Assembly: GCA_947494695.1 (NCBI GenBank)
Contig: CANLWB010000010.1
Coordinates: 124,001-188,000 of the forward strand
Direction: 5' to 3'
DNA: 64,000 nucleotides
From: an uncultured Flavobacteriaceae bacterium
GTDB lineage: Bacteria; Bacteroidota; Bacteroidia; Flavobacteriales; Flavobacteriaceae
The translations under genes were made by a program, and so were the position numbers. The notes under the pieces are model-generated. The model was not told the DNA's origin. It made no database searches and worked only from the letters and a program-made list of their open reading frames with translations. This document shows, piece by piece, positions 14,441-45,078 of this stretch. The stretch's first letter is position 1. Every line of letters begins with the position of its first letter.

Positions 14441-14514
14441 GGTCCCATAGCTCAGTTGGTTAGAGCACCTGACTCATAATCAGGTGGTCCTTGGTTCGAG
14501 CCCAAGTGGGACCA
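14441..14514 (+). tRNA. tRNA with CAT anticodon (Ile2 or elongator Met)
   Basis: A 74-nt cloverleaf. The acceptor stem GGTCCCA pairs with TGGGACC with discriminator A73, the D-arm is in AGCTCAGTTGGTTAGAGC, the anticodon stem/loop is CTGACTCATAATCAG with CAT, and the T-arm is TTGGTTCGAGCCCAA. CCA is not encoded. Position 4 and 5 C-G pairs in the acceptor stem are those used by lysidine-modified tRNA-Ile2 in E. coli (elongator Met has U-A and A-U there). I lean to Ile2, decoding AUA after TilS modification, but elongator Met cannot be excluded by eye. Confidence 0.9.
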
Positions 14515-14602
14515 CACTTAAAACCCTTCTTACAAGAAGGGTTTTTTGTTTGAAAATATTTTGGGCGAGAAGCCTGTATCGAGTGCAGTCGAGGTGCGCC
14601 CA
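14503..14602. repeat. 100-bp direct repeat, copy 1, spanning the tRNA 3' end
   Basis: Starts at the last 12 nt of the tRNA (CAAGTGGGACCA), continues through its terminator and ends in a 41-bp palindromic element (14562-14602) with 6-bp terminal inverted repeats TGGGCG/CGCCCA. Copy 2 is at 28606-28704. The first 28 bp are identical and I count 6 differences over the whole length. Confidence 0.85.
14521..14547 (+). terminator. intrinsic terminator after the tRNA
   Basis: AAACCCTTCTT-AC-AAGAAGGGTTT forms an 11-bp stem and is followed by a run of T residues. This is a strong Rho-independent terminator 6 bp past the tRNA. Confidence 0.85.
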
Positions 14603-18445: not shown

Positions 18446-18454
18446 AAGCTTAGG

Positions 18455-27118: not shown

Positions 27119-27122
27119 AACC

Positions 27123-28043
27123 ATGAAAAGGATAACAATAAACTTAATAGCATTCTTTTTGATAGGAATCTATGGTTACGGACAAGCACCGACATGGTCT
27201 GTTAATGAAAATGATTTTGAATATACTATGTCGTTTGTAGCTTTTTTGAACGTTGATGGAATCACATTAACCAGTACGAATGATCAAGTCGCGGCTTTTG
27301 TGAATGATGAATGCCGCGGGGTCGCCAATTTAATTTATATAGCAAACAAGGACCGATACTATGCTTATTTTAATGTGTTTTCGAACACGAACGGAGAAAC
27401 TTTAAGTTTTAAAGTATATGATTCAACAAATAACAGGGTCGTAGATATTGTAAAAACAGTCAATTTTGAAATCAACGCGCTTTATGGGGATCTATCCAGG
27501 GCTTTTAGTTTTGCCAGTCCCGCGTTAAATAATGATGCAGAATTAGTGAATTTTAATTTTAAAGATGTGACTATTACCAATAAAGGGATTAACGGCAATA
27601 CTATGACCTTGTTTGTTGATAATGGACTTAACGTTTCAGCCTTAACACCTGTTTTCGAATTAAGCATAGGGGCAAAGTTACTTTATAATGGAGCAGAACT
27701 GATCTCGAATAGCAGTGTTTTAGATTTTGAAAAACCGGTCTTGGTTGAGGTTTTATCTGAAGATGAATCGACCCGAAATACATGGGAGATTATAGTACGA
27801 TACAATGCCGTAATAGGGAATTTAACCTTTTATAAAAAAGATGCTGTATGTTATAGTGGGGGCGCCATAAAGGTATTATCTACTGAAAACGGAAGTGAAG
27901 TTGTTTTGTTTAAAAATCAGGTCGCACAGGCGGCTCAAACTCTCGTAAATGGAGAAGTTGTTTTTAATAGCTTACAAGCAGGAGATTATGTGGTTCGTGT
28001 TAACGGGTTCGAAAAACCTATTAGTATTAATTTAAAAGAATAG
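27123..28043 (+). CDS. secreted protein sharing a module with the giant LamG protein
   Basis: 306 residues with a signal peptide (MKRITINLIAFFLIGIYGYG). Residues 22-115 (PTWSVNENDFEYTMSF, DQVAAFVNDECRGVANLIY, YAYFNVFSN, LSFKVYD) align by eye with residues 2386-2500 of the preceding protein (DFDFSMNIIG, DKVAAFSNGDLRGVANVIY, FLTVYSN, LSFNIWD). About 135-225 looks like a DUF5018-type beta-sandwich (LVNFNFKDVTITNKG, TWEIIVRYNA). The C-terminal 75 residues form another small beta domain. There is no T9SS tail. It starts 5 bp after the giant gene, so it is in the same operon and possibly acts in the same surface assembly. Confidence 0.75.
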   Translation: MKRITINLIAFFLIGIYGYGQAPTWSVNENDFEYTMSFVAFLNVDGITLTSTNDQVAAFVNDECRGVANLIYIANKDRYYAYFNVFSNTNGETLSFKVYDSTNNRVVDIVKTVNFEINALYGDLSRAFSFASPALNNDAELVNFNFKDVTITNKGINGNTMTLFVDNGLNVSALTPVFELSIGAKLLYNGAELISNSSVLDFEKPVLVEVLSEDESTRNTWEIIVRYNAVIGNLTFYKKDAVCYSGGAIKVLSTENGSEVVLFKNQVAQAAQTLVNGEVVFNSLQAGDYVVRVNGFEKPISINLKE

Positions 28044-28045
28044 AT

Positions 28046-28459
28046 ATGAAAACTAAATATTATTACATAATGGGGATGTGTTTATGTTTCATTATAAGTT
28101 GCTCCAAGAATGATGATGCAACAGCACCTCCACCTATTGAAGTTGAAAGCTTTGACCCTGTAGATATCAAATTTGTTCATGATGATGGAACCGATATCAT
28201 AGCCGGGGATTGTATTTCTCCTAATGAAGCTTATGCAATTCAGATTACAACCACAAGAAATAGTAATGGAACAACCAGTGTATCTAAGGTAGAATATACC
28301 ATAAATGGTGCCTTATATAGTATGTCATTTTCTGAAGCCGGAACCAAAAGGAACCCGATTACCCTGGTAGACGGAGGTAATATTGCAGAATTGACAGTAA
28401 CTGCCAAAGCAGATGAGGTTTTCTATGTTATTCAGGATGATTTTGAATTAGTAGATTAG
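28046..28459 (+). CDS. small lipoprotein
   Basis: 137 residues with a lipoprotein signal: hydrophobic GMCLCFIIS followed by the lipobox cysteine in ISCSKNDD. The mature part is acidic and beta-rich with no family I recognise. It begins 3 bp after the previous stop and is the last gene of the operon. Being SPII-anchored beside secreted partners, it could tether or chaperone them at the outer membrane; that is inference. Confidence 0.7.
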   Translation: MKTKYYYIMGMCLCFIISCSKNDDATAPPPIEVESFDPVDIKFVHDDGTDIIAGDCISPNEAYAIQITTTRNSNGTTSVSKVEYTINGALYSMSFSEAGTKRNPITLVDGGNIAELTVTAKADEVFYVIQDDFELVD

Positions 28460-28605
28460 AATTGTTTTACACGATGGAATAAGTTTTGATACTCAAACCT
28501 TTATAAATCTATTATATTCCATATAACCATTCCTTTGAGGCTTTATTGGAGTGAAAGCTTTATGTTACTGCGTAATACTCTCCATTGCTGTAACTACATG
28601 TAGAA

Positions 28606-28704
28606 CAAGTGGGACCACACTTAAAACCCTTCTAAAAAGAAGGGTTTTTTGTTTAAAATATTTTGGGTGAGAAGTCTGTATCGAGTGCAGTCGAGGTGAG
28701 CCCA
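28606..28704. repeat. direct repeat copy 2, truncated tRNA end
   Basis: Repeats 14503-14602 in the same orientation. The first 28 bp, including 12 nt of the tRNA 3' end, are identical, and about 94 percent of the whole matches. The rest of the tRNA is absent upstream (ACATGTAGAA precedes it). The palindromic element occupies 28664-28704. Confidence 0.85.
28625..28650 (+). terminator. terminator hairpin within repeat copy 2
   Basis: AACCCTTCT-AAAA-AGAAGGGTT is followed by T residues. It could end the surface-protein operon whose last gene stops at 28459. Confidence 0.75.
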
Positions 28705-29004: not shown

Positions 29005-29012
29005 TATATTTG
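29005..29012 (+). promoter_or_regulatory. -7 promoter element for the AAA/helicase operon
   Basis: TATATTTG matches TAnnTTTG exactly and lies 50 bp upstream of ATG 29063. No -33 element is at standard spacing. It is the only candidate promoter for the four-gene operon. Confidence 0.45.
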
Positions 29013-29062: not shown

Positions 29063-30883
29063 ATGAATGACACCAAGGTGAGATGGTTACAGGATTTCAG
29101 AAGATTCCTTCCTTTAAAAAGTCAATTTATTCTATCAGGTAACATTAAAGATTTTCAGTTAATTAAAAATGATTTTGGCGGTTTTAGTTGGCACAGACTA
29201 GAAAATGCCATTGATGTCGAATTAAAAAATATAGGATACAAACACATTGCCTATTATAACCCTCTAGATGGTTTTGACATTCCATTTTATTCAGGAACCC
29301 CCGAAGAAAAAAAGGCATTATTTCAAAAATTACATATTCCACTTCAGCAGGATACAATTTACCATAATTTAGAAACCTTTAATAAGGTACTACAATCTAT
29401 AGTTAACCATCCTGATGAGCCTATTGCTTTAATTGTGGATTTTGCTTCTCAATTTTTAATGAATGCTGAAAATTTAATTAAAACAGAACATGACACCTTT
29501 AGTTTAGCGCATATTCTATCACAAACTACAGAAACCAGACCCTATGGAAACCCACCTAGCCCATTTTATAATACGGTTATTTGGATTGTAGACAAGGAAG
29601 GGGATTTGCCAGATTGGATGATTGTCAATAATCCTAAAATAAGACATATCCCTATAGGTAAGCCAGACTACATTGCTCGAAGAAGATTGGTTGAACCTAT
29701 TGTTGAAAACCTGTCTCAAAATAATGCTGAAGTAAGCAAGATAGTTACAGATTTTGTCGATGAAACCGAAGGGTTATTATTGTTAGATTTGGTAGCAATT
29801 ATAGAATTGGCCAGAGCAGAGTCCATTCCAATTTTGTTTATTGCCGATGCAGTGAGAAGATATAAAGTAGGTGTAACCGAAGACCCCTGGGTTAAAATTG
29901 ATAGAGAAAAAATAAAGAACGGAGAAACTTTTATAAGAAAGCGGGTAAAAGGGCAGAATCATTCGGTTCAACATATCATGGATATTGTAAAAAGAGCCAT
30001 AACAGGTGTTGGTTCTTCAAAAAGAAATAATCGTCCCAGAGGTGTTGTTTTCTTAGCAGGGCCAACGGGTGTGGGAAAAACAGAGTTAGCCAAAACACTC
30101 ACTAGTCTTTTATTTGGTGATGAAAGCGCATATATTAGGTTTGATATGTCTGAGTTTAGTGCTGAACATTCCGACCAAAGACTTATTGGAGCACCTCCAG
30201 GCTATGTAGGGTATGATGTTGGTGGTGAACTTACCAATGCAGTAAGGGAAAAACCTTTTAGCGTGGTATTGTTTGACGAAATTGAAAAAGCACATCCCAG
30301 AATATTAGATAAATTTCTACAGATTTTAGATGATGGTGTACTTACAAGTGGAAGAGGCGACAAGGTTTATTTTTCTGAAACTCTAATTATTTTCACTTCC
30401 AACTTAGGAATTTATAAAAAATCGCCAACAGGAGAGCGGTTTCCAAATGTGACCTTTGAAGATACATTTGAAACTGTAGAAAAGAAAGTGAAACACGAAA
30501 TTGAACGGTATTTTAAGTTGGATTTAAATCGTCCCGAACTACTGAATAGAATTGGGGATAATATTATTGTTTTTGATTTCATAAGAAATGATGTTGGCAA
30601 AATGATTTTTGATATGATGATGGAAAATCATATCAATGCCATTCAAAAACAACTGGGCATTTCACTTCATCTTCAGCAAGAAGTGATGCAAACGCTTAGG
30701 GAATTATCTATTGCCGATTTAAATAATGGTGGTAGAGGCATTAGAAATAAAATAGAATACCACTTTATTTCACCTATTTCCAGAGCTCTATTTTCATTAA
30801 ATCCAGCTAAAGGTGATGAGGTAGAAGCTTCAAGTATTTTATTAGAACATAGAAGTACTACGATTAATTTGATTAGAAAATAG
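29063..30883 (+). CDS. AAA+ ATPase with a ClpB-D2-like C-terminal half
   Basis: 606 residues. The C-terminal half is a complete Clp/Hsp100 second ATPase domain: Walker A GPTGVGKT at 333-340, pore-loop region GYVGYDVGGELTNAV, Walker B VVLFDEIEKAH with D405/E406, sensor 1 IIFTSNLG and arginine-finger region RPELLNRI. A D2-small domain has a sensor-2-like NGGRGIRNKIE. The N-terminal half (1-290) looks like a degenerate AAA module (IALIVDFASQFL, TVIWIVDKEGDLPDWM) lacking a P-loop. There are no ClpB N-domain or middle coiled-coil motifs, so it is not a housekeeping chaperone. It is the first gene of a four-gene operon and presumably unfolds or remodels a partner. Confidence 0.8.
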   Translation: MNDTKVRWLQDFRRFLPLKSQFILSGNIKDFQLIKNDFGGFSWHRLENAIDVELKNIGYKHIAYYNPLDGFDIPFYSGTPEEKKALFQKLHIPLQQDTIYHNLETFNKVLQSIVNHPDEPIALIVDFASQFLMNAENLIKTEHDTFSLAHILSQTTETRPYGNPPSPFYNTVIWIVDKEGDLPDWMIVNNPKIRHIPIGKPDYIARRRLVEPIVENLSQNNAEVSKIVTDFVDETEGLLLLDLVAIIELARAESIPILFIADAVRRYKVGVTEDPWVKIDREKIKNGETFIRKRVKGQNHSVQHIMDIVKRAITGVGSSKRNNRPRGVVFLAGPTGVGKTELAKTLTSLLFGDESAYIRFDMSEFSAEHSDQRLIGAPPGYVGYDVGGELTNAVREKPFSVVLFDEIEKAHPRILDKFLQILDDGVLTSGRGDKVYFSETLIIFTSNLGIYKKSPTGERFPNVTFEDTFETVEKKVKHEIERYFKLDLNRPELLNRIGDNIIVFDFIRNDVGKMIFDMMMENHINAIQKQLGISLHLQQEVMQTLRELSIADLNNGGRGIRNKIEYHFISPISRALFSLNPAKGDEVEASSILLEHRSTTINLIRK

Positions 30884-30886
30884 ACT

Positions 30887-31513
30887 ATGAAAATTGCTAT
30901 TTCTCGTTTACATTTTCCAGTCTCAACACTTGGCCCAGGAAAAAGAATAGGCATTTGGTTTCAAGGCTGTTCCATTCATTGCGAAGGTTGTATCTCTGCA
31001 GATACCTGGCAGTTTAATACGAATTTGGTGGATTTAGAAGAAGTGAAGAAAATGCTAAAAAAGTGGTTGCCAAAAGCAGAAGGGATAACCATTTCGGGAG
31101 GAGAACCTTTTGATCAACAACCAGCACTATTTGAATTGCTTGGTTTTCTAAGATCATATAATTTATCGGTCTTGGTTTATAGTGGTTATTCATTTCAAAA
31201 ACTTCAAAAGCAAAAAGAAATTCTGAATCTAATAGATGTTTTAATATCAGAACCATACGATTATAAAAAAACACAAACCAAAGCGTTATTGGGTAGTGAT
31301 AACCAAAAAATACATTTCCTATCTACCTTAGGAAAAGAGTCCTTTTCGGCTTATGCTGAAAAAGCACCAGAAAAAACACTAGATGTACAGTTTGATTCTA
31401 ATGAGGTATGGATGGCAGGAATTCCAATATCTGGAATGGAAAAAATATCTAAAGCGTTTAACCAAAACGGAGTTCACATTAAAAGTACTCAAGCTGTAAT
31501 AAAGAAAGAATAA
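30887..31513 (+). CDS. minimal radical SAM protein (NrdG-like, single 4Fe-4S)
   Basis: 208 residues. Residues 16-40 carry GPGKRIGIWFQGC and the CX3CX2C motif (C28, C32, C35 in CSIHCEGC) followed by DTW, a pattern typical of NrdG-type activases. ITISGGEPFDQQ is the SAM-binding GGE motif. There are no auxiliary-cluster cysteines. Class III ribonucleotide reductase is not adjacent. The gene lies 3 bp after the AAA+ ATPase and its stop overlaps the next ATG by one base, so it is an integral part of this operon. The target of its radical chemistry, perhaps a partner protein, is unknown. Confidence 0.8.
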   Translation: MKIAISRLHFPVSTLGPGKRIGIWFQGCSIHCEGCISADTWQFNTNLVDLEEVKKMLKKWLPKAEGITISGGEPFDQQPALFELLGFLRSYNLSVLVYSGYSFQKLQKQKEILNLIDVLISEPYDYKKTQTKALLGSDNQKIHFLSTLGKESFSAYAEKAPEKTLDVQFDSNEVWMAGIPISGMEKISKAFNQNGVHIKSTQAVIKKE

Positions 31514-34500
31514 TGAAGTATATAAGACTTTGCCCAGCTTGTAATAGCGAAAGACCTGTAAGCGAAATGTATTGTAAGAATGTTGTTGAAGATACAGCAT
31601 GTAGTTGGCTTCTCATGAACGTTAAACAAACACTAGTAGGCGGCAATGTAGACGTACATACAACTCTAGAGGAAAACAAACGCTACTGTGAAATGGGCCA
31701 TGAAGTGGGAGAATCTGACTTTATGTGTATGGAATGTGGAGCTGATATAAAAGAAGAGATAGCCGCAGAAGAAAAGATACAGCTTATAGATGAATATACC
31801 GTTATAGAATCTATACAAACGGCACAAGTAACCAAAGAATGCTTTCTGGTTAAGGACGATAAAGAAACGGTTTATTTTTTAACGCTATATCATGAAAATT
31901 GCGAACCCGATAAAGCAATTTACAATGTTTTAAGAAAGGCAGATGTAGACCATGTCGCAGAACTAATTAAAACAGGATATTGGAATGATCGCTTTTTTGA
32001 GGTTACCGAACAAATAAAAGGAGGGTCATTAGATACACTTGATTATCTCAATGAAGATCAACTAGAGAAGTTAGTTGACGAAATTGGAAGAGCGCTTCAC
32101 GATTTTTCAGAAGCAGGATTGCGTCATCGCGACTTATGTCCTTGGAATATACTTATTAGAAATAATCAAAATTTTGATCTGGTAATTATTGATTTGAGCT
32201 CTGCTCGTTTATCCGATTATGATTTAGATACCGATACCCCTTTAGAATTAACAAAATATACAGCTCCAGAAGCGATTATAGGTGGTGTTAGTCCGGCTTC
32301 AGACTGGTGGAGTCTAGGTATGATTATTTTGGAGCAAGCTACTAATGGGGAGTTTTTTAAGAACATAAATGATAAGGCTTTTATGATTCATTTAGTAACT
32401 AGAGGAGTTGAATTACCAACGAATCTAGACGAAAGGATCTTACTATTGCTAAAAGGCCTATTATGTAGAGACCCCTTAAAACGTTGGAATTGGGAACAGG
32501 TAAATAAATGGTTAAATAAAGAATATGTAGCTCCTCCCATAGAAACTTGGGTAGCCCCAAACCAAGGAAAGGAAAAAAAGATTGTTTTAGGAGGAGAAAC
32601 GTATACCAATATCAATTATTTTGCTCTTGCCGCAGCCGAGGAAAAAAACTGGGAAGAAGGGCTTTCCTTATTTACATCGGGAGCACTTTCAAACTGGGTA
32701 AATGAAATTCTAGGAGAAGATAAGATAAGTTCTTCCATTAAAAATTTACGTACCAAAGAGGATATTGATTTAGAGTGGCGTTTTTCCTTAGCATTAATGC
32801 ATTTAAATGAAGCACTGCCTTTAACCTGGAGAGGGCAAATAATCATTCCCGCTTGGTTATTGGGAAACCCTATCGCTGCTTCAAAATTAATAGACGGGGA
32901 AATTCCTAATTATTTAGGTCAAATTAATCGAGAAAAATGGCTGGTTAACCTAAAAGCCCGAAAACAAAATATAGTAGAAAAAGCGAAAAAGTTAGACATT
33001 GATATAGATAAGAATAAATTTGAGATAAATGTACTTAGCACTTCGAGAGTAAGGCTAAAATCTGAAATAGATTTACTCCGTCAAATTTATCCTGATGCTA
33101 ATAATGAAGGCTTATCCGGCTTAATGGGCGATATTAGACTAAATGAAGAAGACTTAATACTCATACTAAGTGCAGATAGCAGACAGTTTATACCATTAGA
33201 CGAATTGGTAAAAAAAGCGACCGATTTAGCAAAAAAAATCAAAATTGATGTAGACGTAAATTTTTATAGAGACCTGCTTATAAGGCCAATAATTGATATT
33301 TACAAACTTCTAAATTCACATTTAGAAGGTTTTTCCAATACGAGTAACGAATCTTTAAATCGTTGGGCAGATCGTTTTAGAATTGAAAAAAGACTTTCGT
33401 TGTTAAAATCGGTTTTATGTTTGTCATTACCTAAAGATAAGTGGATTACCCCGCCAAAACACGAATATGCGTCTAGCTTATTGCAGTTTTTTGAAAAGAA
33501 AATAGTTTATGCCTCTTCAAGAGGGCCTTTGGTTAGGTTAATTATTTCAAAACATTCTCCACGTCTCGACTTAAATGAGCTGGGTACTTCTCTAAAACCT
33601 TCAGAAAAATTACTACTTAAAATCATCAATCGGTATGCTGGCGCAGAGGCTGTAGACCCAAGGGTTTTTAGTGAAAACCCAATTTTGCAGTACAGAACTA
33701 GGCGTATGCTATTAAAAACGGCAAACCATAAGCGAGACACCGGTTTAGATTCATTGTATATGGGATTTCCGTTTTTAATTAATCAAGCCAAAACAACACA
33801 CAGACCACGAATATTGCCTATACTTTTATGGCCTGTAGCGTTAGAATTAAAGAATAGATCGGCGCCAGCATTAGAACTAGAATTTGATAAAATTCGTGAA
33901 GAAATACGGTTAAATCCTGCGCTTGCCAGTACTTTGGAGGTTGACGAATATAAAAAAATCAAACAGATCTATCGCGAAATCCTTGGAAGACAAACATTAA
34001 GTGTCTCAGATGTAATAAATGCATTTGGTTCTTTTTTTGAATTGAATACTTCAAAACTTAGCCCTCATCCCGAAAGTATTTATAAGATGAAAGATTTGGG
34101 AGTACAAATTCATTGTTCCGCAGTAATTTTTAACGCTAATTTTACGGGGCAGGCAATTAGCGAAGATTTACGCTTATTGCAAAAGTTACCACATACAGGT
34201 ACAGCAATGGAGCCTGTTTTAAAGATAAATATTCCTGAAATTCCTGAGTATAACCCTATAACTTCTGAAAACGACAGATACACTGTAGTACCTGTAGACC
34301 CATCACAAGAGAAAGCAGTAATGCACAGCAGATTAAGCCCTGGTATTGTAGTAGAAGGGCCTCCCGGTACGGGTAAAAGCCAGACCATAGTGAACATTAT
34401 TTCAGACTGTTTGGGTAGAAATGAAAAGGTGCTTGTCGTATCTCAAAAAAGAGCTGCTATTCAGGTGATTTTAAAGCGTCTGGAAGCTGCTGGTTTAGAA

Positions 34501-37500
34501 AAAAGAACTTTAACAATTACAGATATCACCAAGGATCGTCAAAGTATTATTAAAAATGTACGAGAGCATGTTTCCCATCATCTTAAAAAAACAGAGCAAC
34601 AAAACGCACTTGAAGAACTTCAATATAGGCGAAACAATTTAACTGGGCAAATAGATAGAATAGAGAGAAAACTAAATGTATTATCTGATAAAATACATGT
34701 ATTAGACCATACCGCAGGCCTAAGTTATCGAAATATATTATCCGAACTCATTCAAATTCAATCTGAAACATATATCGATGTTCCAGAAGTTAGAGGCATT
34801 TTAGAGAATACCGCTGCAAACGAACTAAATGTTATAGAAGAACAAACTAGAGCGTTAATTAATGATTGGTTACCCTCAAAATATGAAGAAAATGCACTTG
34901 CTCATCTTAAAGTATTACAACCAGATGAAGTTACACAAAATACTATTAGTAATGACTTAAAAGACTTTTATGAAATTGAAGAAAAAAGAGTTATCTGTAT
35001 TAAGCAAACCTCAAAGGTTTTTGATAATGAAAAAGCTCAATTTTATGAGAAATGGTTGATTGAAAATGAGAAGACACTACTGAAAATTACTGATGTAGAA
35101 GCAAGCAATGCCAGTAATTGGTCTGATTTAATCTATGATGAATTCAATGAAAAATCAATAGCTGAGGATATTTCAGAGAATCTGCTTCAATTATCAAAAA
35201 ACACATTAGCGTTACTCGAAGGGAGTAGAAATGAGGCGTTTTCTGAATGGGTAATCCAAACCTCAGATGATTTATTGTATAAAACCAAAAAAGCCTGTGA
35301 TAGTTATTTAAGAAAGTCAAAATTCAGGGTACTTAATCCCTTTTCTTGGGTTTACGATTATAGACTTAAAAAAGTTTTAGGAATTCATCAATTAAAATTA
35401 AACCATGAGAATGCAAATCAATTAAAAATAGCATTGGGTTATGAGTCTACCTTTAGAGATTATCGAAATCAATTTAAACTTCAGTTAAAGAAGTTAAACA
35501 TTAGTTTTGATCCGATTTTTGAAACAAAACTTCTGACAGTAAAAATTGGTAGTCAACTTAATGATCTTTCTTCATCCATTGAATTGGCGCAGGCTCTGAA
35601 AAGTTGCCCTTTAAAGAATGAAGCCAGAAATTTATTAAAGACAGGAGCAAAGAAAGAGTATCAGCAGTTTACTCAGGATTTAAAAGATGCTAGTGATAGG
35701 TTTAAGATTAGGCAAAAATCTAATAAAAAAATCAATGCGTTAAAGCAATGGCTTACCCCTGTTAGTTTTGCTAAATTTGAAGAGAACATTAGGAATAACA
35801 ATACTAGTTTAGAGCTTCTAAAAATGATGATAGCTGATATGGTTTACTATATACCTTATCAGAAATTTAGAATAAGATTAGGAGATGACAAACTCGTTGA
35901 TGATACATTAAAACTATTGGCACTAGTTAGAAAATATGATCATAAAATAAATGAGTTTCCCATTGGTAGTTGGAATGAGCTTATAGCAAAAACGATTAGG
36001 CGCGAAGGTTTGCTTGGATGGAAACAACGAATAGAAAAAGAATCGCCTGCCTTACTTATGGCAGAGAACAACATAGCGCAAAATATTAAGTCGTTAGATA
36101 AATCTTTGACTGAAGTTAAAGGGTTAAATAAGAAATTACTAAATCTTAATTATAACTTTAATGAAATTGGACCCAAATCGGATTGGAGTGCAATTACCAG
36201 ATTACGAGGAAAGAATTATAAAAAGCTTCGCGAATTTATCCATTTAGGAGAAGAAATAGGATTATTAAACTTAAGACCAATATGGTTAATGAGTCCCGAG
36301 GTGGTTTCGCAAGCATTGCCGCTACAAGCAGGTATGTTTGATGTGGTTATTTTTGATGAAGCTTCTCAAATGCTAATAGATCATGCTATTCCTTCTTTAT
36401 ATAGAGCCAAAAGGGTAATTATAAGTGGCGATGAAAAACAAATGCCTCCTGCAGATTTCTTTGCTCATAAAATAGAAACCGATGATGATGTAACGAATAC
36501 TGAATTAAGTGAAGACAATTCCGAAGAAGAATTAGTAAGTTTACAAGATGCCTGGAATAAACAAGAGGTAAAAGATTGCCCAGATTTATTAACCTTGGCT
36601 AAAACGGTATTGCCAACAACAACGCTTCAAATTCACTATCGCTCTCAATTTAAGGCTTTAATTAATTTTTCTAATCATGCCTTTTATAGCGGGCAATTAC
36701 ATATTCCAGCTTATCACCCTCTAAATGAAATAGAAAAGGCTAAACCTCTTGAAGTAATTCGAGTAAATTCAGTTTACAATGAACAGGCTAATGAAGGTGA
36801 GGCTGATAGCTTAATTGAATATTTGTGCAACCATTGGCAGTTGCCCGAAACCGAAAGACTAAGTACAGGTATTGTTACTTTCAATAAAAAGCAATCAGAA
36901 CTTATTGAAGAAAAAATAGAAGAAAGAGCTCTTGGTGATGAAGGTTTCATGGCAATTTTGACCAGAGAACGCAACAGACAACAAGAGGGTGAAGATATGG
37001 GCTTTTTTGTGAAAAATGTAGAAAACGTTCAGGGAGATGAACGGGATATGATTCTATTTAGTACCACTTTTGGGTACAACAATCACGGGGTTTTTCGTCG
37101 TAATTTTGGAGTCTTAGGTCATCGTGGAGGAGAAAGACGCTTAAATGTAGCGATTACCAGAGCCCGTTATAAAATTGTTATTGCTACTTCAATGCCTATT
37201 AGAGATATTTCAGATATGTTATCAACAGGAAGATCACCATCCAAACCGAGAGATTATATACAGAGTTATTTGAATTATGCCGAAAATCACTCTAATACGC
37301 ACATTGAAATAGCCGATAAGCAAATAAAAAAACTATCAGCAAACAGCACGTATCAAGACACAATTATAAAAAATGATGGTTTTAAAAATACGGTTAAAAA
37401 TTATATTGAAAGTATTGGTTACAATGTGGTAGAAAATAACGACTACAATGTATTTTATCTGGATTTGGCAATTGAGGATAAAGAAACTGGCAGATTTGTT

Positions 37501-37695
37501 ATTGGTATTGAATGTGATGTGCCAAATAATGAGTTACTGGCAAATGCTAGATATAGAGAATTATGGCGTCCATTGATACTTAAAAAATCTATTCCTGTGA
37601 TACATAGAACTACTTCTTATAGGTGGCTTCAGGATGAAGACGGGGAGAAAAACAGATTAAAAAGAACAATAGAAAATGTACTAAATACAAAATAG
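31513..37695 (+). CDS. zinc-ribbon / kinase-like / SF1 helicase / nuclease fusion
   Basis: 2060 residues. The N-terminus has two zinc ribbons (C7, C10, C21, C30; C59, H63, C72, C75). A Ser/Thr-kinase-like fold follows (about 85-330) with HRDLCPWN (H205-N212), IIDLSS in place of DFG (D227), YTAPE, and SDWWSLGMI; the beta-3 lysine is missing (YFLTLYH). The SF1 helicase has Walker A GPPGTGKS at 949-956, a helical insertion (about 1010-1560), motif II FDEASQM (D1615, E1616), IISGDEKQMPP, HYRSQ, VENVQGDERDMI and NVAITRARY (about 1878). The C-terminus resembles the MTES_1575/Vsr-like nuclease fold (D1984, E2000, D2002 in GIECD). Helicase plus nuclease implies action on nucleic acid, and the whole resembles defence effectors. 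Confidence 0.85.
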   Translation: MKYIRLCPACNSERPVSEMYCKNVVEDTACSWLLMNVKQTLVGGNVDVHTTLEENKRYCEMGHEVGESDFMCMECGADIKEEIAAEEKIQLIDEYTVIESIQTAQVTKECFLVKDDKETVYFLTLYHENCEPDKAIYNVLRKADVDHVAELIKTGYWNDRFFEVTEQIKGGSLDTLDYLNEDQLEKLVDEIGRALHDFSEAGLRHRDLCPWNILIRNNQNFDLVIIDLSSARLSDYDLDTDTPLELTKYTAPEAIIGGVSPASDWWSLGMIILEQATNGEFFKNINDKAFMIHLVTRGVELPTNLDERILLLLKGLLCRDPLKRWNWEQVNKWLNKEYVAPPIETWVAPNQGKEKKIVLGGETYTNINYFALAAAEEKNWEEGLSLFTSGALSNWVNEILGEDKISSSIKNLRTKEDIDLEWRFSLALMHLNEALPLTWRGQIIIPAWLLGNPIAASKLIDGEIPNYLGQINREKWLVNLKARKQNIVEKAKKLDIDIDKNKFEINVLSTSRVRLKSEIDLLRQIYPDANNEGLSGLMGDIRLNEEDLILILSADSRQFIPLDELVKKATDLAKKIKIDVDVNFYRDLLIRPIIDIYKLLNSHLEGFSNTSNESLNRWADRFRIEKRLSLLKSVLCLSLPKDKWITPPKHEYASSLLQFFEKKIVYASSRGPLVRLIISKHSPRLDLNELGTSLKPSEKLLLKIINRYAGAEAVDPRVFSENPILQYRTRRMLLKTANHKRDTGLDSLYMGFPFLINQAKTTHRPRILPILLWPVALELKNRSAPALELEFDKIREEIRLNPALASTLEVDEYKKIKQIYREILGRQTLSVSDVINAFGSFFELNTSKLSPHPESIYKMKDLGVQIHCSAVIFNANFTGQAISEDLRLLQKLPHTGTAMEPVLKINIPEIPEYNPITSENDRYTVVPVDPSQEKAVMHSRLSPGIVVEGPPGTGKSQTIVNIISDCLGRNEKVLVVSQKRAAIQVILKRLEAAGLEKRTLTITDITKDRQSIIKNVREHVSHHLKKTEQQNALEELQYRRNNLTGQIDRIERKLNVLSDKIHVLDHTAGLSYRNILSELIQIQSETYIDVPEVRGILENTAANELNVIEEQTRALINDWLPSKYEENALAHLKVLQPDEVTQNTISNDLKDFYEIEEKRVICIKQTSKVFDNEKAQFYEKWLIENEKTLLKITDVEASNASNWSDLIYDEFNEKSIAEDISENLLQLSKNTLALLEGSRNEAFSEWVIQTSDDLLYKTKKACDSYLRKSKFRVLNPFSWVYDYRLKKVLGIHQLKLNHENANQLKIALGYESTFRDYRNQFKLQLKKLNISFDPIFETKLLTVKIGSQLNDLSSSIELAQALKSCPLKNEARNLLKTGAKKEYQQFTQDLKDASDRFKIRQKSNKKINALKQWLTPVSFAKFEENIRNNNTSLELLKMMIADMVYYIPYQKFRIRLGDDKLVDDTLKLLALVRKYDHKINEFPIGSWNELIAKTIRREGLLGWKQRIEKESPALLMAENNIAQNIKSLDKSLTEVKGLNKKLLNLNYNFNEIGPKSDWSAITRLRGKNYKKLREFIHLGEEIGLLNLRPIWLMSPEVVSQALPLQAGMFDVVIFDEASQMLIDHAIPSLYRAKRVIISGDEKQMPPADFFAHKIETDDDVTNTELSEDNSEEELVSLQDAWNKQEVKDCPDLLTLAKTVLPTTTLQIHYRSQFKALINFSNHAFYSGQLHIPAYHPLNEIEKAKPLEVIRVNSVYNEQANEGEADSLIEYLCNHWQLPETERLSTGIVTFNKKQSELIEEKIEERALGDEGFMAILTRERNRQQEGEDMGFFVKNVENVQGDERDMILFSTTFGYNNHGVFRRNFGVLGHRGGERRLNVAITRARYKIVIATSMPIRDISDMLSTGRSPSKPRDYIQSYLNYAENHSNTHIEIADKQIKKLSANSTYQDTIIKNDGFKNTVKNYIESIGYNVVENNDYNVFYLDLAIEDKETGRFVIGIECDVPNNELLANARYRELWRPLILKKSIPVIHRTTSYRWLQDEDGEKNRLKRTIENVLNTK

Positions 37696-39036
37696 ATGAG
37701 TGGCCCTAAAGTTGTAAGAATTGTAACTCCAGAAGAACGAAGAATAATTAAGCAAAAATGGATTAGCAGATTAAAAAGTAAAATTGCTAATGTAGAATCA
37801 TATGCTTTAAAACATAATACGCTTAATGACGATTTGAAAACTGCATTACAAAAAACACTAAATCATTATCAAAATATTTCAGAAGACGATTACTCAAGAA
37901 TAGAAAGAGAAATACCTAATCAAATCAAATTTCTGGAAACAGAAAAGAAAAACTTAGTTAAAAAAGTTGTAAAAGAAAGAGCTTCAAAATGGGAAACATA
38001 TAAAAACCTAAAGAGCGCACATAACGAGTTGAGGTTTTTGCTAAAAAATAAAAATATAAAATTTAATGACTTTGATGCGCCATCAATAATTTCTGAAGAA
38101 CAGATAAAAACATACAGTAAACATATTGATGCTTTATATACCATCTTAAAAAATGCTACTTTTAATGAACAAAAACTAACAGGCGAACAGGTAGAAATTC
38201 AGAAGCGTTTATCCTCAGGCGATAGTTTACTTTCTGTTGAAAAATGGAAATCAAATCGTCCTAAAGTTATAACAAGACTTAAGAAGCTAGAAAACACTTT
38301 AAAAGAAATGTATGTTACGGATGTTTCTCAAGGTAAAATTCAGGAATTTATACAGCGCTGTAATGAACTTAACAGTAGCGATACTAATTATTCTCTCTTA
38401 TTAGATTCACTAACTATAGAGGCGGCAACGTTTTATAAAGAACAATTAGAGCTTAGAGAAATTAAGGAAAGTTTAGAGCATATAATTGCTCAATTGGAAA
38501 CATTAGAACTAAAAATTCAGTTTATAAATAAATGGAAAGCGTTACTTCAATCCGATAACTTAACCGATTTACAAAATGCATTAGAAAAGGCAACTAGGCT
38601 ATACGACGAAGAATCTCAAAGAATTATTACTGAAACTAGGCGAAAAGCCATTAAAAAAGCATTGAAAGATACTGGTTATGAGGTTAATGATGGTATGGAA
38701 ACCGCTTGGGTGGAGAATGGACGTTTAGTGGTAAAAAAAGCAAAAAACGCTCTTTATGGTGTAGAATTTATGAGTCCCAAAAATTTAAGTCGCATTCAAG
38801 CAAGGGTTATTGCCGATGAAAACAGAAAAAATGAAAGAACGCCGAGTCTCGATAAAAATCAAGAAGAGGTTTGGTGCGACGAATTCCATGAGATTAAAGC
38901 GATTTTGGAAAACGAAGATTTATCTATTATTGTTGATAAAATGAAAGAAGCGGGATCTGTTGAGCTTAAAGAAGCTCCTTTAGATGAAAGCTACGTAAGG
39001 AGCGAAAAGCATACGAAAAAAAGTAGGAAGCTTTAA
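37696..39036 (+). CDS. coiled-coil protein of the AAA/helicase operon
   Basis: 446 residues starting MSGPKVVRIVTPEERRIIKQ directly after the helicase stop codon with no gap. Long charged helices run from about 15 to 330 (coiled-coil heptads rich in K/E/L). A compact C-terminal region follows (about 345-420) with DTGYEVNDGMETAWVENGRL and LYGVEFMSPKNLSRIQARVI, which looks like a small beta domain. There are no enzyme motifs. I do not recognise the family. Its fixed place at the end of the operon suggests a structural, sensor or adaptor partner of the ATPase or helicase. The C-terminus is acidic then basic (KHTKKSRKL). Confidence 0.7.
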   Translation: MSGPKVVRIVTPEERRIIKQKWISRLKSKIANVESYALKHNTLNDDLKTALQKTLNHYQNISEDDYSRIEREIPNQIKFLETEKKNLVKKVVKERASKWETYKNLKSAHNELRFLLKNKNIKFNDFDAPSIISEEQIKTYSKHIDALYTILKNATFNEQKLTGEQVEIQKRLSSGDSLLSVEKWKSNRPKVITRLKKLENTLKEMYVTDVSQGKIQEFIQRCNELNSSDTNYSLLLDSLTIEAATFYKEQLELREIKESLEHIIAQLETLELKIQFINKWKALLQSDNLTDLQNALEKATRLYDEESQRIITETRRKAIKKALKDTGYEVNDGMETAWVENGRLVVKKAKNALYGVEFMSPKNLSRIQARVIADENRKNERTPSLDKNQEEVWCDEFHEIKAILENEDLSIIVDKMKEAGSVELKEAPLDESYVRSEKHTKKSRKL

Positions 39037-39048
39037 AAGTATACTAAA

Positions 39049-39072
39049 AAGCCTCCTTTTTTTCGGAGGCTT
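39049..39072 (+). terminator. hairpin after the AAA/helicase operon
   Basis: AAGCCTCC-loop-GGAGGCTT is an 8-bp GC-rich stem 12 bp after the stop codon, with T residues in the loop and only a weak T-tract after it on this strand. On the minus strand it is followed by TTTTT, so it may work in that direction as well. Confidence 0.6.
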
Positions 39073-39298: not shown

Positions 39299-39454
39299 AA
39301 ATTATCAAAAGTTAAAAGTTATGCCTCGATTTCAGAAACTTTATTCATCAGCATAAATACTGTAAAAACTCATATTAAAAATATCTATGAAAAACTTCAG
39401 GTAACTAATAGGGAAGATGCGATTAAACTGTATGATAATAAGCATCTTCGTTAA
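39299..39454 (+). pseudogene. truncated LuxR-type HTH fragment
   Basis: About 51 codons reading LSKVKSYASISETLFISINT and VKTHIKNIYEKLQVTNREDA form the second half of a GerE-type helix-turn-helix, complete to a normal C-terminus. The region upstream in frame is translated REP-hairpin sequence, so no receiver domain or start of the original gene survives. Likely the stub of a response regulator destroyed by the repeat insertion or a deletion. It sits between the AAA/helicase operon and the NrtR locus. Confidence 0.6.
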
Positions 39455-39667: not shown

Positions 39668-40360
39668 ATGAAAGTCAGACAAGAGATAAAGGTAGCAGTT
39701 GATGCGGTTGTTTTTGGCTATGAGTCTAAGAACAATCTTTCTGTTTTATTAATTAAAAGAGGAATTGAACCTTTTAAGAATGAATGGGCTTTACCCGGAG
39801 GCTTGGTTTTAAATGATGAATCGTTAGAAGATGCTGTTGAACGAGAACTTAAAGAGGAAACCGGAATAACTATAGATTATTTAGAGCAGTTATATACATT
39901 TGGTTCGCCGAATAGAGATCCCCGAAATAGAGTACTGGCCGTGAGCTATTTTGGTTTGGTAAAACCCAATCATTTCAAAATTAAAGCGGATACCGATGCA
40001 GCCGATGTGCAATGGTTTCATTTAAGTGAATTGCCAAAATTGGCTTTCGATCATCAGGAAATTTTGGATATGGCACATCAACGCCTCAAAGCAAAATTGA
40101 GCTATGAACCCATTGGCTTTGACTTGCTAAATGACGAGTTTCCATTCTCAGACTTAGAGCATTTATATATGACCATTTTAGGGAAAGAAATAGACCGAAG
40201 GAATTTCAGAAAAAAAATGCTAAGCTTTGGTATTATTGAAGAAACCAATAAAATAGAAAAAATTGGTAGTGGTCGTCCGGCAAAACTTTTTAAATTCAAT
40301 AAAAAGAAATTCAAACAACTTACTGTAAATGATTTCCATTTTGAAATAAAGTTTGTGTAA
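39668..40360 (+). CDS. nrtR: NrtR-type Nudix transcriptional regulator
   Basis: 230 residues. The N-terminal Nudix domain (1-130) has LPGGLVLNDE and EDAVERELKEETGI. The Nudix box GX5EX7REUXEEXGU is complete, unlike many NrtRs in which it is degenerate. The C-terminal winged helix (about 150-225) contains DLEHLYMTILGKEIDRRNFR and IGSGRPAKLFKFN. NrtR proteins repress NAD metabolism genes and release DNA on binding ADP-ribose-type ligands (family knowledge). An operator lies at its own promoter and a perfect 21-bp palindrome overlaps its stop codon. Its neighbours are PRPP-synthetase-like, NADAR, KptA and NAMPT genes, which supports a NAD/ADP-ribose role over the sugar-metabolism role seen in some Bacteroidota NrtRs. 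Confidence 0.85.
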   Translation: MKVRQEIKVAVDAVVFGYESKNNLSVLLIKRGIEPFKNEWALPGGLVLNDESLEDAVERELKEETGITIDYLEQLYTFGSPNRDPRNRVLAVSYFGLVKPNHFKIKADTDAADVQWFHLSELPKLAFDHQEILDMAHQRLKAKLSYEPIGFDLLNDEFPFSDLEHLYMTILGKEIDRRNFRKKMLSFGIIEETNKIEKIGSGRPAKLFKFNKKKFKQLTVNDFHFEIKFV

Positions 40361-40372
40361 AAATTACACAAA
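40352..40372 (+). promoter_or_regulatory. perfect 21-bp palindrome overlapping the nrtR stop
   Basis: TTTGTGTAA-AAA-TTACACAAA includes the nrtR stop codon TAA (40358-40360). Its half-site TTTGTGTAA matches the half-sites of the NrtR-type operators. It lies 30 bp upstream of the next operator, so it may be an auxiliary binding site. Confidence 0.6.
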
Positions 40373-40374
40373 AT

Positions 40375-40421
40375 TTTGTTATATCATTTTGTCTTTATAC
40401 ATTTGTGTAAAATATACGCAA
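40375..40421 (+). promoter_or_regulatory. promoter and NrtR-type operator of the PRPP-synthetase-like gene
   Basis: The -33 element TTTG (40375-40378), 19-bp spacer and -7 element TACATTTG (40398-40405) form a textbook Bacteroidota promoter. TTGTGT-N7-ACGCAA (40403-40421) overlaps its -7 end and the start site and stops one base before the ATG at 40423. Confidence 0.75.
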
Positions 40422-40422
40422 T

Positions 40423-41274
40423 ATGATTTTGAATCTAGACCCCAGTTTTAATCCATTCGGCAAAGATGAAAGTATTGAATTTGAAAGCTTCACGTTTTCG
40501 GGAGGTGAACCTCATATCAAGATTTTAACTTCCATACATGAAGATCTAAGTGTGACGGTAACACACAGAATCCAGTCTTTTAATGATTTTGGGCTTTTAT
40601 TATTAGCTATTGATGCCTTGCAGAGAGTGGGAGTTAAAACCATAGATGTGCTAATTCCTTATTTTCCTGCCGCTAGACAGGATCGGGTTATGGTGCCGGG
40701 AGAATCGTTATCTGTGAAGGTATATGCAGAGCTATTAAACAACTTGAATTTGAATCGTGTCACAGTTTATGATCCGCATTCAGAGGTAACCCCAGCACTT
40801 TTGAATAACTGTAAGGTAGTTTCAAATTATAATTTTATTAAAGACGTGATCAAGGATATTGATAAAGAGATCATCCTTATTTCACCAGACGGAGGAGCTT
40901 TAAAGAAAATTTACAAATTATCCAGTGCATTGGGCGGGATAGATGTTGTAGAATGCTCAAAATCACGAGACGTAAAGACCGGGCAAATATCAGATTTTAA
41001 AGTATATGCTGAAGATTTAAAAGGAAAACCGTGTTTAATAGTTGATGATATATGCGACGGTGGTGGAACTTTTATGGGGCTGGCAAAAGAGCTTAAAAAT
41101 AAGCACGCAGGACAATTATACTTAGCCGTTAGTCATGGTGTTTTTAGCAAGGGTTTAACCGAGCTTAGTTCTTGTTTTGATAAAATATATTCCACAGATT
41201 CGTTTAGAAGTATTGAAAGTACAGAGCGGTTTAAGCAAATTGAATTAAAAGAGATAAGTAACAATGACATATAG
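40423..41274 (+). CDS. prs: PRPP-synthetase-family protein (NAD-salvage type)
   Basis: 283 residues, shorter than housekeeping PRPP synthetase (about 310). The ATP-site loop PYFPAARQDRV and the PRPP-binding loop CLIVDDICDGGGTF are present, with PDGGALKK and YDPHSE as further family motifs. Canonical activity is PRPP from ribose-5-phosphate and ATP, feeding the NAMPT-type enzyme at 45079. A pair of PRPP-synthetase-like and NAMPT-like enzymes is also the composition of phage NARP1 systems (ADP-ribose pyrophosphorylation, then nicotinamide transfer). An ADP-ribose substrate is thus an alternative I cannot exclude. The stop overlaps the NADAR gene by 11 bp. Confidence 0.85.
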   Translation: MILNLDPSFNPFGKDESIEFESFTFSGGEPHIKILTSIHEDLSVTVTHRIQSFNDFGLLLLAIDALQRVGVKTIDVLIPYFPAARQDRVMVPGESLSVKVYAELLNNLNLNRVTVYDPHSEVTPALLNNCKVVSNYNFIKDVIKDIDKEIILISPDGGALKKIYKLSSALGGIDVVECSKSRDVKTGQISDFKVYAEDLKGKPCLIVDDICDGGGTFMGLAKELKNKHAGQLYLAVSHGVFSKGLTELSSCFDKIYSTDSFRSIESTERFKQIELKEISNNDI

Positions 41275-41833
41275 TAGAAAACAGCTTATAACAGAGTTTG
41301 AAAAACAAAGAAAAATTAAATATCTATTCTTTTGGGGACATACCCCCAATAAAGATGGTAGCATTGGTAAAAGTTGTTTTAGTCAATGGTGGGTAGCGCC
41401 TTTTGAAGTAGAAGGAATAACTTATAAAACAGCAGAGCATTGGATGATGGCAGAAAAAGCACGATTGTTTGATAATGATGATATGGTAGATGAAATAATA
41501 AAATGTAAAACACCTGCTGAAGCAAAAAAATGGGGTAGAAAAGTAACAGGGTTTATTCCTGAAGAATGGGATAATACTAAGTACGAGATTGTTAAAAAAG
41601 GGAATTTATACAAGTTCTTACAAAATGATGATTTAAAAGATTTTTTGATTAGAACTAATGATAGAGTGCTTGTAGAGGCGAGTCCAGTCGATCCTATTTG
41701 GGGAATTGGTTTAGCTTCAGACCATAAAAATGTTGAAAATCCAAATTTGTGGAAAGGAGAAAATCTTTTAGGTTTTGCTTTAATGGAGGTGCGAGATCAA
41801 TTGAAAACGAATACATTAGATATAGGTCAATAG
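41264..41833 (+). CDS. NADAR (YbiA-like) ADP-ribose/NAD hydrolase family protein
   Basis: 189 residues covering the whole NADAR domain: FFWGHTPNKDGSIGKSCFSQ, the active-site helix TAEHWMMAEKARLF, PAEAKKWGRKVTGF, and a C-terminal PIWGIGLASDH and NLLGFALMEVRDQL. Members hydrolyse N-glycosidic bonds of riboflavin intermediates or remove ADP-ribose from nucleic acids (guanine-linked in known cases). The gene overlaps the PRPP-synthetase-like gene and is under the same NrtR-type operator. In this context reversal of ADP-ribosylation is the more likely role, as inference. Confidence 0.9.
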   Translation: MTYSRKQLITEFEKQRKIKYLFFWGHTPNKDGSIGKSCFSQWWVAPFEVEGITYKTAEHWMMAEKARLFDNDDMVDEIIKCKTPAEAKKWGRKVTGFIPEEWDNTKYEIVKKGNLYKFLQNDDLKDFLIRTNDRVLVEASPVDPIWGIGLASDHKNVENPNLWKGENLLGFALMEVRDQLKTNTLDIGQ

Positions 41834-41973
41834 AAGAAAAGGAACTTGTTCTAAGTATTGAAATCGGATTTAAAAATTTCCACCAAAGTTAAATTAGATA
41901 GGCAATATTATTTATAAGCAGGGAGATGCAACGCAACCCAGTTCTAATGGTAATAAAATCATATTGAATAAGC

Positions 41974-42531
41974 ATGAACATGACAGAACAACGAAAAAAA
42001 CAAATAAGTAAATTTCTAAGTTTGATATTAAGGCATCAACCTGAAACAATTGGACTAAAGCTAGATGAAAATGGGTGGGCTGTAATTCATGAGATCTTTG
42101 AGAAATCGAAATTACGATTTACGTTTGAAGAATTGGAGGAAGTAGTCGTTACAAGTGATAAACAACGATTCTCATTTAATGCCGATAAAACAAAAATAAG
42201 AGCAAACCAGGGGCATTCATTAAAAACAGTTGATTTAAACTTGAAGCCTCAAACGCCACCACCGTTTTTATATCATGGTACGGTAACAAAGTTTATGCCT
42301 GCCATAAAATTACATGGACTAAAAAAAATGAGTCGTCAACATGTGCATTTAAGTAAGGATAAAGATACAGCTATAAAAGTGGGTTCAAGAAGAGGAAAAC
42401 CAATTATACTGGGTGTTAGGGCAATGGATATGCAAAATGAAGGGCATCTGTTTTTTAAGTCCGAAAATGGTGTTTGGTTAACCGATCATATTCCCCTAAA
42501 ATTTATTGAGTTTAAACCAGTTCAACATTAG
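41974..42531 (+). CDS. kptA: RNA 2'-phosphotransferase (KptA/Tpt1)
   Basis: 185 residues. The N-terminal winged helix has the family opening KFLSLILRHQPETIGLKLDE and NGWAVIHEIFE. The C-terminal ART-fold domain has FLYHGTVTKFMPAIKLHGL, RQHVHLSKD and the trailing SRRGKPIILGV. Tpt1 enzymes transfer a 2'-phosphate from RNA to NAD+, and some ADP-ribosylate nucleic-acid ends. In bacteria without tRNA splicing the substrate is uncertain, so placement beside NADAR in an NAD locus is telling. ATG 41980 is an equally possible start. It is 140 bp after the NADAR gene. Confidence 0.9.
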   Translation: MNMTEQRKKQISKFLSLILRHQPETIGLKLDENGWAVIHEIFEKSKLRFTFEELEEVVVTSDKQRFSFNADKTKIRANQGHSLKTVDLNLKPQTPPPFLYHGTVTKFMPAIKLHGLKKMSRQHVHLSKDKDTAIKVGSRRGKPIILGVRAMDMQNEGHLFFKSENGVWLTDHIPLKFIEFKPVQH

Positions 42532-42680
42532 AATAATCGGATGAATGGATGGTATGGATAAGAATGAAGGACAGGGGTAATAAATAATTATAAATATTTA
42601 CATAAGTTTACCTTAAGTTAAAATAACGCGCTTCCGGGAGTTTTTATATAGAACCCCAATAATAAATAAAAACAAATAAA

Positions 42681-43016: not shown

Positions 43017-43018
43017 TT

Positions 43019-43879: not shown

Positions 43880-43882
43880 AGA

Positions 43883-44956: not shown

Positions 44957-44975
44957 TTCTCACTTTTATAAAAAA

Positions 44976-45051
44976 TATATTTGTGTAAAAAATACGCAAA
45001 TTAATTTGCGAAATCAAATTTACTTTCTATATTTGTGTAATAATAACGCAA
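44976..45051 (+). promoter_or_regulatory. double NrtR-type operator and promoter of the NAMPT gene
   Basis: Two dyads TTGTGT-N7-ACGCAA lie at 44981-44999 and 45033-45051. Between them is the perfect palindrome CGCAAATT-AATTTGCG (44995-45010). The promoter is TTTG (45005-45008), 19 bp, TATATTTG (45028-45035), so the downstream dyad overlaps the -7 element as at the other two sites. A second TATATTTG (44976-44983) overlaps the upstream dyad. Confidence 0.75.
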
Positions 45052-45078
45052 ATCTAAATCAATAACACCAATAACACC

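Follow-up and report, generated by a model that had tools for sequence, protein, structure and literature searches.

What do four tightly packed genes on a contig of an uncultured Flavobacteriaceae bacterium encode, and do they belong together? The stretch of DNA analysed here, referred to as the window (64,000 nucleotides, positions 124,001 to 188,000 of contig CANLWB010000010.1 in assembly GCA_947494695.1), carries between positions 29063 and 39036 four intact open reading frames (ORFs) on the + strand, here called genes A to D, with intergenic gaps of 3, -1 and 0 bp. A preliminary description of the locus had proposed four such packed genes as a candidate conflict system, and the four ORFs were confirmed. 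The data presented here support the view that A-D are one system carried as a mobile cassette, and its genomic context and component parts tip the balance towards a so far unnamed anti-phage or anti-plasmid function. The genes are as follows.

29063..30883, + strand: gene A, a 606-amino-acid AAA+ protein (ORF listing, Pfam and NCBIfam scans)
30887..31513, + strand: gene B, a 208-amino-acid radical S-adenosylmethionine (SAM) protein of the NrdG/PflA (Fer4_12) kind (family scans, alignment)
31513..37695, + strand: gene C, a 2060-amino-acid fusion of zinc ribbons, a kinase fold, an uncharacterised region, a superfamily 1 (SF1) helicase and an MTES_1575 nuclease
37696..39036, + strand: gene D, 446 amino acids with a helical body at about residues 12-325

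Linkage, distribution and mobility

When genome contigs were searched with C, the order A-B-C-D was found in all 10 distinct flavobacterial loci, with C at 60-98% identity. In one of them (L023) gene A is interrupted by the end of the contig, and two others (L016 and L017) lie in genomes from the genus of the window (G002 and G006). Among plasmids, C was covered to at least 80% in 8 of 409 matching records at about 38% identity (seven from Rhizobium and one from Caballeronia), and the A N-domain, B and D were each matched in all eight. Gene order was inspected in four of these plasmids, with all four ORFs open in three (L056, L057 and L058); because several of the Rhizobium records are near-identical strains, the eight do not count as independent events. 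Two further plasmids, from Roseomonas and Microvirga, keep just the end of C, together with D, with a transposase gene directly 5' of the Microvirga C remnant. This linkage, in 10/10 flavobacterial loci and 8/8 plasmids, supports A-D being one system, and the unit first noted in the window thus recurs as a whole in Flavobacteriaceae and in Alpha- and Betaproteobacteria. Purifying selection acts on all four genes: in a comparison with two near-identical copies and one copy of 71-87% protein identity, the ratio of nonsynonymous to synonymous substitution (dN/dS) was 0.04-0.06 for A, 0.11-0.20 for B, 0.07-0.09 for C and 0.12-0.17 for D.

Gene A was present in 3 of 12 genomes of the same genus, and in the order sample the window's own genome was the single match among 395. 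Of the 295 genomes sampled from the class, 35 matched the kinase part of C, with E < 1e-20 for the window's own only. A profile of the A N-domain matched 67 of 395 phylum genomes including the window's own, the other 66 being weak matches (E 9e-13 to 7e-6) over about the first 150 positions. Twelve of these weak loci were inspected; an A-like ORF was recognised by profile in 11, and homologues of B, C or D were found within about 10 kb in none, so these loci were excluded from the system and a wider spread in Bacteroidota was rejected. L207-L217 hold other Bacteroidota AAA-like proteins of about 570-700 amino acids, whose N-terminal region is related to the A N-domain (with ILHGNVxD in several) and whose surrounding row of genes is conserved in several.

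Viral contigs gave no match when searched with C alone. With A1 as the query, at least 80 viral-contig loci were matched, every match starting at residue 181 or beyond, as expected of ClpB-type chaperones. Further viral-contig scans added L184, a relative of A at a contig edge, L185, which has a truncated C together with D, and the distant helicases L186 and L187; the A N-domain was not found in phage records. In L185 (positions 7598-14165, an IMG/VR viral contig), the match to C starts only at residue 790, next to an ORF that looks integrase-like by eye, and D comes after C; an element may be inserted in C.

The cassette is mobile, and a tRNA-Met gene marks its insertion hotspot. The tRNA-Met locus was matched in 12 of 12 same-genus genomes, and in G002 and G006 the operon begins less than 450 bp from the tRNA. 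G007 holds the empty site: from 80 bp past the tRNA, its sequence is the same as that 3' of the operon in G002 and G006, and comparison with those two genomes gives a cassette size of about 10.4 kb. In G003 (L174, 1541-10642) type I restriction-modification (R-M) genes, comprising R, M, S and a PtuA-like AAA gene, lie 1.3-10.4 kb past the same tRNA, and other members of the genus hold different sequence there; G009, whose contig ends at the locus, was not scored for occupancy. In the window, a 14-kb segment with an ORF of 2887 amino acids separates the tRNA from the operon (14441-28698), and two landmarks delimit it.

14441..14515, + strand: tRNA-Met, the hotspot landmark
28606..28698, + strand: imperfect (95%) direct repeat, 93 bp, of the tRNA-Met 3' end and terminator, between the 14-kb insert and the operon

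By eye, the product of the 2887-amino-acid ORF looks like a surface protein.

Named relatives and the case for defence

PADLOC-DB 2023 and NCBIfam June 2026 were used as defence and family profile libraries. In these, no profile fits the whole cassette and no NCBIfam defence equivalog was matched above its cut-off, and the combination A-D was not described in the open-licence literature searched. The earlier impression that no named system has this combination is therefore upheld by the profile comparison. The closest named relatives of C are defence proteins (PDC-S37, ProA, Hhe and MkoA). Residues 732-2057 of C match positions 109-1342 of the 1550 in the model of PDC-S37, a PADLOC candidate, over the helicase-nuclease part (3.8e-138), and residues 913-2058 match ProA (NCBIfam NF058533) at 3.4e-143, with 479 bits against a cut-off of 1500. 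However, neither match reaches the ribbons and kinase fold of C, and neither explains A, B or D. The C-terminal helicase-nuclease half of C reaches 286 bits against Hhe, a DUF4011 helicase-nuclease with a cut-off of 2000, but DUF4011 is not among the Pfam matches of C, and Hhe is a single gene.

Mokosh type I resembles C in having a COG1112-type helicase and a serine-threonine kinase domain (PMC11672841), a combination that C also carries, and the MkoA match is 6e-50. However, the nuclease there is of the phospholipase D (PLD) type, whereas A-D have no PLD match in Pfam and the nuclease of C is MTES_1575; the available part of that source names no AAA+ or radical SAM partner. Hachiman (HamAB) is an analogy only, likened by description and not by sequence: the available part of PMC12278908 describes a helicase sensor and a nuclease effector, but HamA is a DUF1837 nuclease and a separate protein. 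The FtsH ternary conflict systems (Kaur et al. 2020, PMC7159879) share with the cassette an AAA+ protein and a radical SAM gene whose presumed role is to modify an effector peptide, but in the available part of that account they have a vWA protein and an AAA+ protein of the FtsH type, whereas A-D are without a vWA match in Pfam. Radical SAM genes occur as presumed effectors in FtsH ternary systems, and elsewhere the same source describes SF1 helicases accompanying PIN domains. As a further comparison for C and B, PMC10250203 describes core genes of an aeruginosa defence hotspot.

The neighbourhood of the cassette was also surveyed for defence genes. For 71 ORFs chosen from 119 at the hotspot, the PADLOC families listed (25 of 160) include type I R-M, mad and PtuA, each in one member. 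Flanking ORFs of the homologues, 84 hand-picked from 168, matched 83 PADLOC families, and the 25 listed include reverse transcriptases, PDC candidates, AriA and type II methyltransferases. By annotation, the Microvirga remnant (L060) lies next to a SIR2 gene and a gene for type I restriction. The preliminary description had suggested integrases and R-M genes as neighbours; several copies or slots do lie near defence genes, but integrases were not generally seen, and no systematic search for them was made.

Several observations weigh against a mobile defence cassette. A tRNA stands beside the cassette in just L016 and L017, both of the same genus, among 14 loci, and in L025 a tRNA-Pro is about 8 kb off. 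Proteins scanned singly matched PADLOC models in 4 of 10 cases at the hotspot, all four in G003, and in 3 of 10 cases among the flanking proteins, these being AriA-like (L022), a DNA methyltransferase (L061) and a reverse transcriptase (L023; a generic model fits best). No recognised complete defence system stands beside the window copy, and three ORFs of the upstream 14-kb insert were scanned with no match. The cassette is followed on its 3' side in the window by an NAD/RNA-related cluster (39668-46533) with an NrtR-like regulator, a phosphoribosyl pyrophosphate (PRPP) synthetase, a NADAR-type protein that matches an anti-phage NADAR model under the cut-off, an RNA 2'-phosphotransferase, a PurA-like protein and a nicotinate phosphoribosyltransferase. 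The copy on the Rhizobium plasmid pRL1 (L061, 7535-16259), next to a type II methyltransferase, looks broken in A and C, because the annotation splits C into two ORFs and gives no A, whose open frame is shorter there.

The proteins themselves add to this side of the argument. A matches PADLOC models PDC-M37B (1.4e-29, residues 329-448) and DolB (1.3e-19, residues 269-448) over the AAA core only, with no match to PDC-M37/DolB beyond it, and its predicted structure is poor, with a predicted local distance difference test score (pLDDT) of 52.5, for which reason the model was left out of the fold search. B has no specific defence-family match, that to pVip (PADLOC) being weak at 1.6e-4, and it could act on a target outside the cassette. 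D is without a credible family match in the Pfam, PADLOC or NCBIfam scans, and its predicted structure found no PDB match at E<=0.001.

If not immunity, the cassette could serve the maintenance of genome or proteome, as a mobile stress or repair operon with C acting on damaged DNA or RNA, A as a chaperone and B as a repair-type radical enzyme. The top NCBIfam models of A are indeed the chaperones ClpB, ClpV and ClpA, and the genes 3' of the cassette in the window are metabolic. However, the sporadic presence (3/12 in the genus and 1/395 in the order sample), the carriage on plasmids, the tRNA hotspot with an empty site and with R-M in the same slot, and the defence proteins nearest to C all speak against it, and we consider such an operon unlikely. 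The preliminary conflict-system reading is supported in part, with one mobile system, defence genes near several of its copies or slots and no named match, and it is refined below with respect to the kinase, the radical SAM protein and the partners of A and B.

The four proteins and a possible mechanism

Pfam matches to C are Pkinase (1e-22), the helicase families AAA_12 (5e-17) and AAA_11 (6e-17), and MTES_1575 (4e-15, above the gathering cut-off). Two Cys-rich ribbons at the N-terminus (C7/C10/C21/C30 and C59/H63/C72/C75) are invariant in the 10 proteins aligned, and the helicase motifs are invariant in the same number except for the I/V position in motif VI.

31780..32532, + strand: kinase fold, C residues 90-340 (Pkinase match, alignment)
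34267..37242, + strand: SF1 (COG1112/UPF1-like) helicase with a long insert, C residues ~919-1910
C residues 949-958, 1615-1618, 1639-1646, 1836-1845 and 1878-1885: helicase motifs GPPGTGKSQT, DEAS, GDEKQMPP, VENVQGDERD and NVA(I/V)TRAR
37375..37671, + strand: restriction endonuclease (REase)-fold MTES_1575 nuclease, C residues 1955-2053, with D1984 and IECD 1999-2002 invariant in 10/10

In the kinase domain, HRD is kept in 10/10 and no N-lobe Lys is invariant, while the DFG Asp (227) is present in 7/7 flavobacterial members and replaced by Gly in the 3/3 proteobacterial members aligned. An active kinase would have the N-lobe Lys and the HRD and DFG Asp residues conserved together, which is not the case for C. 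Because no N-lobe Lys is invariant and the DFG Asp is Gly in the proteobacterial members, the domain is probably a catalytically dead pseudokinase, as judged from the alignment. A phospho-signalling defence, in which the kinase of C would be active on D or on proteins of the phage in the manner of kinase-type abortive infection, could appeal to the HRD motif and the flavobacterial DFG Asp, to the mad6 and PD-T4-6 kinase models that match C, and to a split relative (L062) with two separate DFG-bearing kinase genes, an FHA protein and an annotated phosphatase. However, the lack of an invariant N-lobe Lys across the 10 proteins and the Gly in every proteobacterial member aligned make this quite improbable.

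A matches Pfam AAA_2 at 3e-49 and, over residues 260-588 (ClpB-type D2), the NCBIfam ClpB model at 1.5e-75, far under the model cut-off.

A residues ~278-590: Hsp100/ClpB D2-type ATPase, with Walker A at 333-341, pore loop GAPPGYVGY at 376-384 and Walker B at 403-412
A residues 445-447, 490-498 and 556-559: further D2 motifs, sensor-1 TSN, RPE.L.RIG (arginine-finger region) and GGRG

These motifs are invariant in 12/12 proteins aligned, with V337, V382 and I497 nearly so. With Walker A and B, a GYVG pore loop, an arginine finger and sensor 2, A is a D2-type AAA+ protein of the Hsp100/Clp kind. Residues 1-262 form an N-domain without Walker A, which at a guess is a degenerate AAA+ domain.

B matches Pfam Fer4_12 at 7e-29. 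It scores 89 bits (2e-25) against the NCBIfam NrdG model, with a cut-off of 126, and 62 bits against PFLA, with a cut-off of 232, and its closest relatives of solved structure are activating enzymes of pyruvate formate-lyase (PFL).

B residues 28/32/35, 16-20, 71-74 and 136-140: motifs CX3CX2C, GPGxR, GG(E/D)P and GSxNQ

All four motifs are kept in 15/15 proteins aligned, which places B in the radical SAM superfamily. The weak pVip match given above, and the radical SAM chemistry common to both, raise the question of whether B makes an antiviral nucleotide in the manner of viperins. This is very improbable, since the NrdG model (2e-25) outscores the NCBIfam viperin model (0.039; 13.1 bits against a cut-off of 180) by a wide margin and the closest solved relatives are PFL activases. 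Scarcely credible at all is B as a passenger with a housekeeping role in the host, activating either class III ribonucleotide reductase or pyruvate formate-lyase: NrdG and PFLA are its top NCBIfam models, but it falls under both cut-offs, the reductase NrdD (PF13597) was not found in the host genome (a control was positive in 6 of 14 genomes), the single glycyl-radical enzyme found there, a PFL, has its own PflA above the cut-off beside it, and B is retained in the operon at 10 chromosomal loci and matched in 8 plasmids.

The scores under the NrdG and PflA cut-offs, the lack of NrdD and the separate host PflA suggest that B has a job of its own, and it is probably dedicated to the cassette. 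Because the nearest families of B act on proteins, a cassette protein would be its likeliest substrate. D carries an MSGPK N-terminus and, in its C-terminal part, a GY that are invariant in 14/14 aligned, and it is predicted to be mostly helical with a mean pLDDT of 71, the C-terminal part being mostly below 50 and thus of low confidence. DUF1257 (Ycf35) followed by DUF2997 was considered for the C-terminus of D and rejected, as profile tests were unsupportive; the Pfam model of DUF2997 matched 0 of 21 relatives.

In terms of the preliminary description, the Clp-D2-like ATPase is borne out by the AAA_2 and ClpB matches and the conserved D2 motifs. For the fusion protein, the ribbons, helicase and nuclease domain are seen by Pfam or alignment and the kinase-like fold is present but probably dead. 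The "minimal NrdG-type" protein is a radical SAM protein of the NrdG/PflA kind, but not a stray NrdG or PflA.

These parts suggest a model in which C would be the effector, its SF1 helicase loading onto nucleic acid that is foreign or damaged and the REase-fold nuclease at its C-terminus making the cut. The zinc ribbons and pseudokinase of C, together with the helical D, may act as a scaffold or sensor. A would be a threading ring of the Hsp100 type, setting the trigger by remodelling the C-D complex or by releasing it, and B a dedicated radical SAM modifier, with D or C as the most likely substrate, that licenses or arms the complex. What the sequences show is the gene linkage, the conserved motifs, the selection, the mobility and the defence genes near several copies, from which we infer a defence function, the protein on which each part acts and the order of events. 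The effector half belongs to a familiar type, and the unfoldase and radical SAM partners are the new part: helicase-nuclease phage defence is known, but its pairing with an Hsp100 unfoldase and a dedicated enzyme of the glycyl-radical-activase type is undescribed in the libraries and literature searched. If the model is right, the cassette would be a case of a nuclease armed or held in check by protein unfolding and radical chemistry, and the A+B pair would be a marker for finding related systems.

Variant clusters and flanking features

Nearly full-length A (32-38% identity) was also found without C, in the company of a B-type protein that carries the motifs of B. One arrangement, in the order helicase-like protein, PIN protein, hypothetical protein, A and B, occurs on plasmids of Moellerella, Acinetobacter, Leisingera and Polaromonas (L066, L149, L150 and L151), and this five-gene cluster is a candidate system of its own. 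The PIN domain was confirmed by Pfam in Moellerella and rests on annotation in the other three, and the helicase was recognised by annotation and, in Moellerella, by a weak blastp match to C. In an exact-string test of three A proteins from these clusters, the Walker A string was present in 3/3, the Walker B string in 2/3 and the pore-loop string in 2/3. A search of 5426 E. coli genomes found the cluster in none at 80% coverage, with 1459 short matches and Clp ATPases among the matches listed. An A gene was also found in Photobacterium.

The second arrangement, on an Aristaeella lactis plasmid (L062, 1790-19652), consists of a DUF4011 protein, a kinase, an MSGPK protein, an FHA/zinc-ribbon protein, B, A, a phosphatase and a second kinase, the motifs reported for the two kinases being DFG and APE. 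Both arrangements resemble the cassette in having a homologous A, a B-type radical SAM protein, a helicase-like gene and a hypothetical protein in the position of D. They differ in that a PIN protein replaces the MTES_1575 fusion, or in that kinase, DUF4011 protein, FHA protein and phosphatase are separate genes. As far as searched, both are unnamed. The L062 protein is likened to D by its MSGPK start and gene position, and the PIN-cluster protein by gene position and general look; both were rejected as D homologues, as no hhalign score was significant. The PIN-cluster protein matches DUF2997 weakly, with a Pfam E of 0.018 in one of four and an hhalign probability of 38%, and no claim is made from this. 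In four loci of Paenibacillus and actinobacterial plasmids (L063, L065, L067 and L068), an AAA gene distinct from A, small genes of the DUF1257/DUF2997 type and a B-type radical SAM gene lie close together; because these loci were picked for their annotation, they show only that the arrangement exists.

The A+B pair was seen in Bacteroidota, Pseudomonadota and Bacillota, and because full-length A and a B-type protein occur with other partners, the pair looks like a modular core. A wider proposal would make the cassette one branch of a modular conflict class, with a fixed core of Hsp100 unfoldase, dedicated NrdG/PflA-like radical SAM protein and helical D-type adaptor, and with nuclease modules that can be exchanged (a kinase-helicase-REase fusion, a helicase with PIN, or a split kinase and helicase). 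Immunity would be licensed by radical SAM modification of the adaptor, perhaps in the form of a glycyl radical, or the product of one, on the conserved G(Y/F) pair in its C-terminal domain. This is offered as speculation that we think has a small chance of being right; the likeness of the G(Y/F) pair to glycyl-radical motifs is a short one and may be chance.

Two sequence features border the operon.

29005..29012, + strand: TATATTTG, which we take to be a Bacteroidota-type -7 box, 58 bp upstream of A
39045..39071, + strand: terminator-like inverted repeat GCCTCC...GGAGGC, 3' of D, read by eye

The -7 box was present in 2 of 9 upstream stretches inspected (the window and L016). Because the terminator-like repeat is also found at the empty site in G007, it may be part of the flank. 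One of the PIN-type clusters is on the Acinetobacter plasmid pNDM1_010055. In the window, at 39326-39454, a fragment looks by eye like the end of a LuxR-type DNA-binding domain and is perhaps a gene remnant at the border of the cassette.

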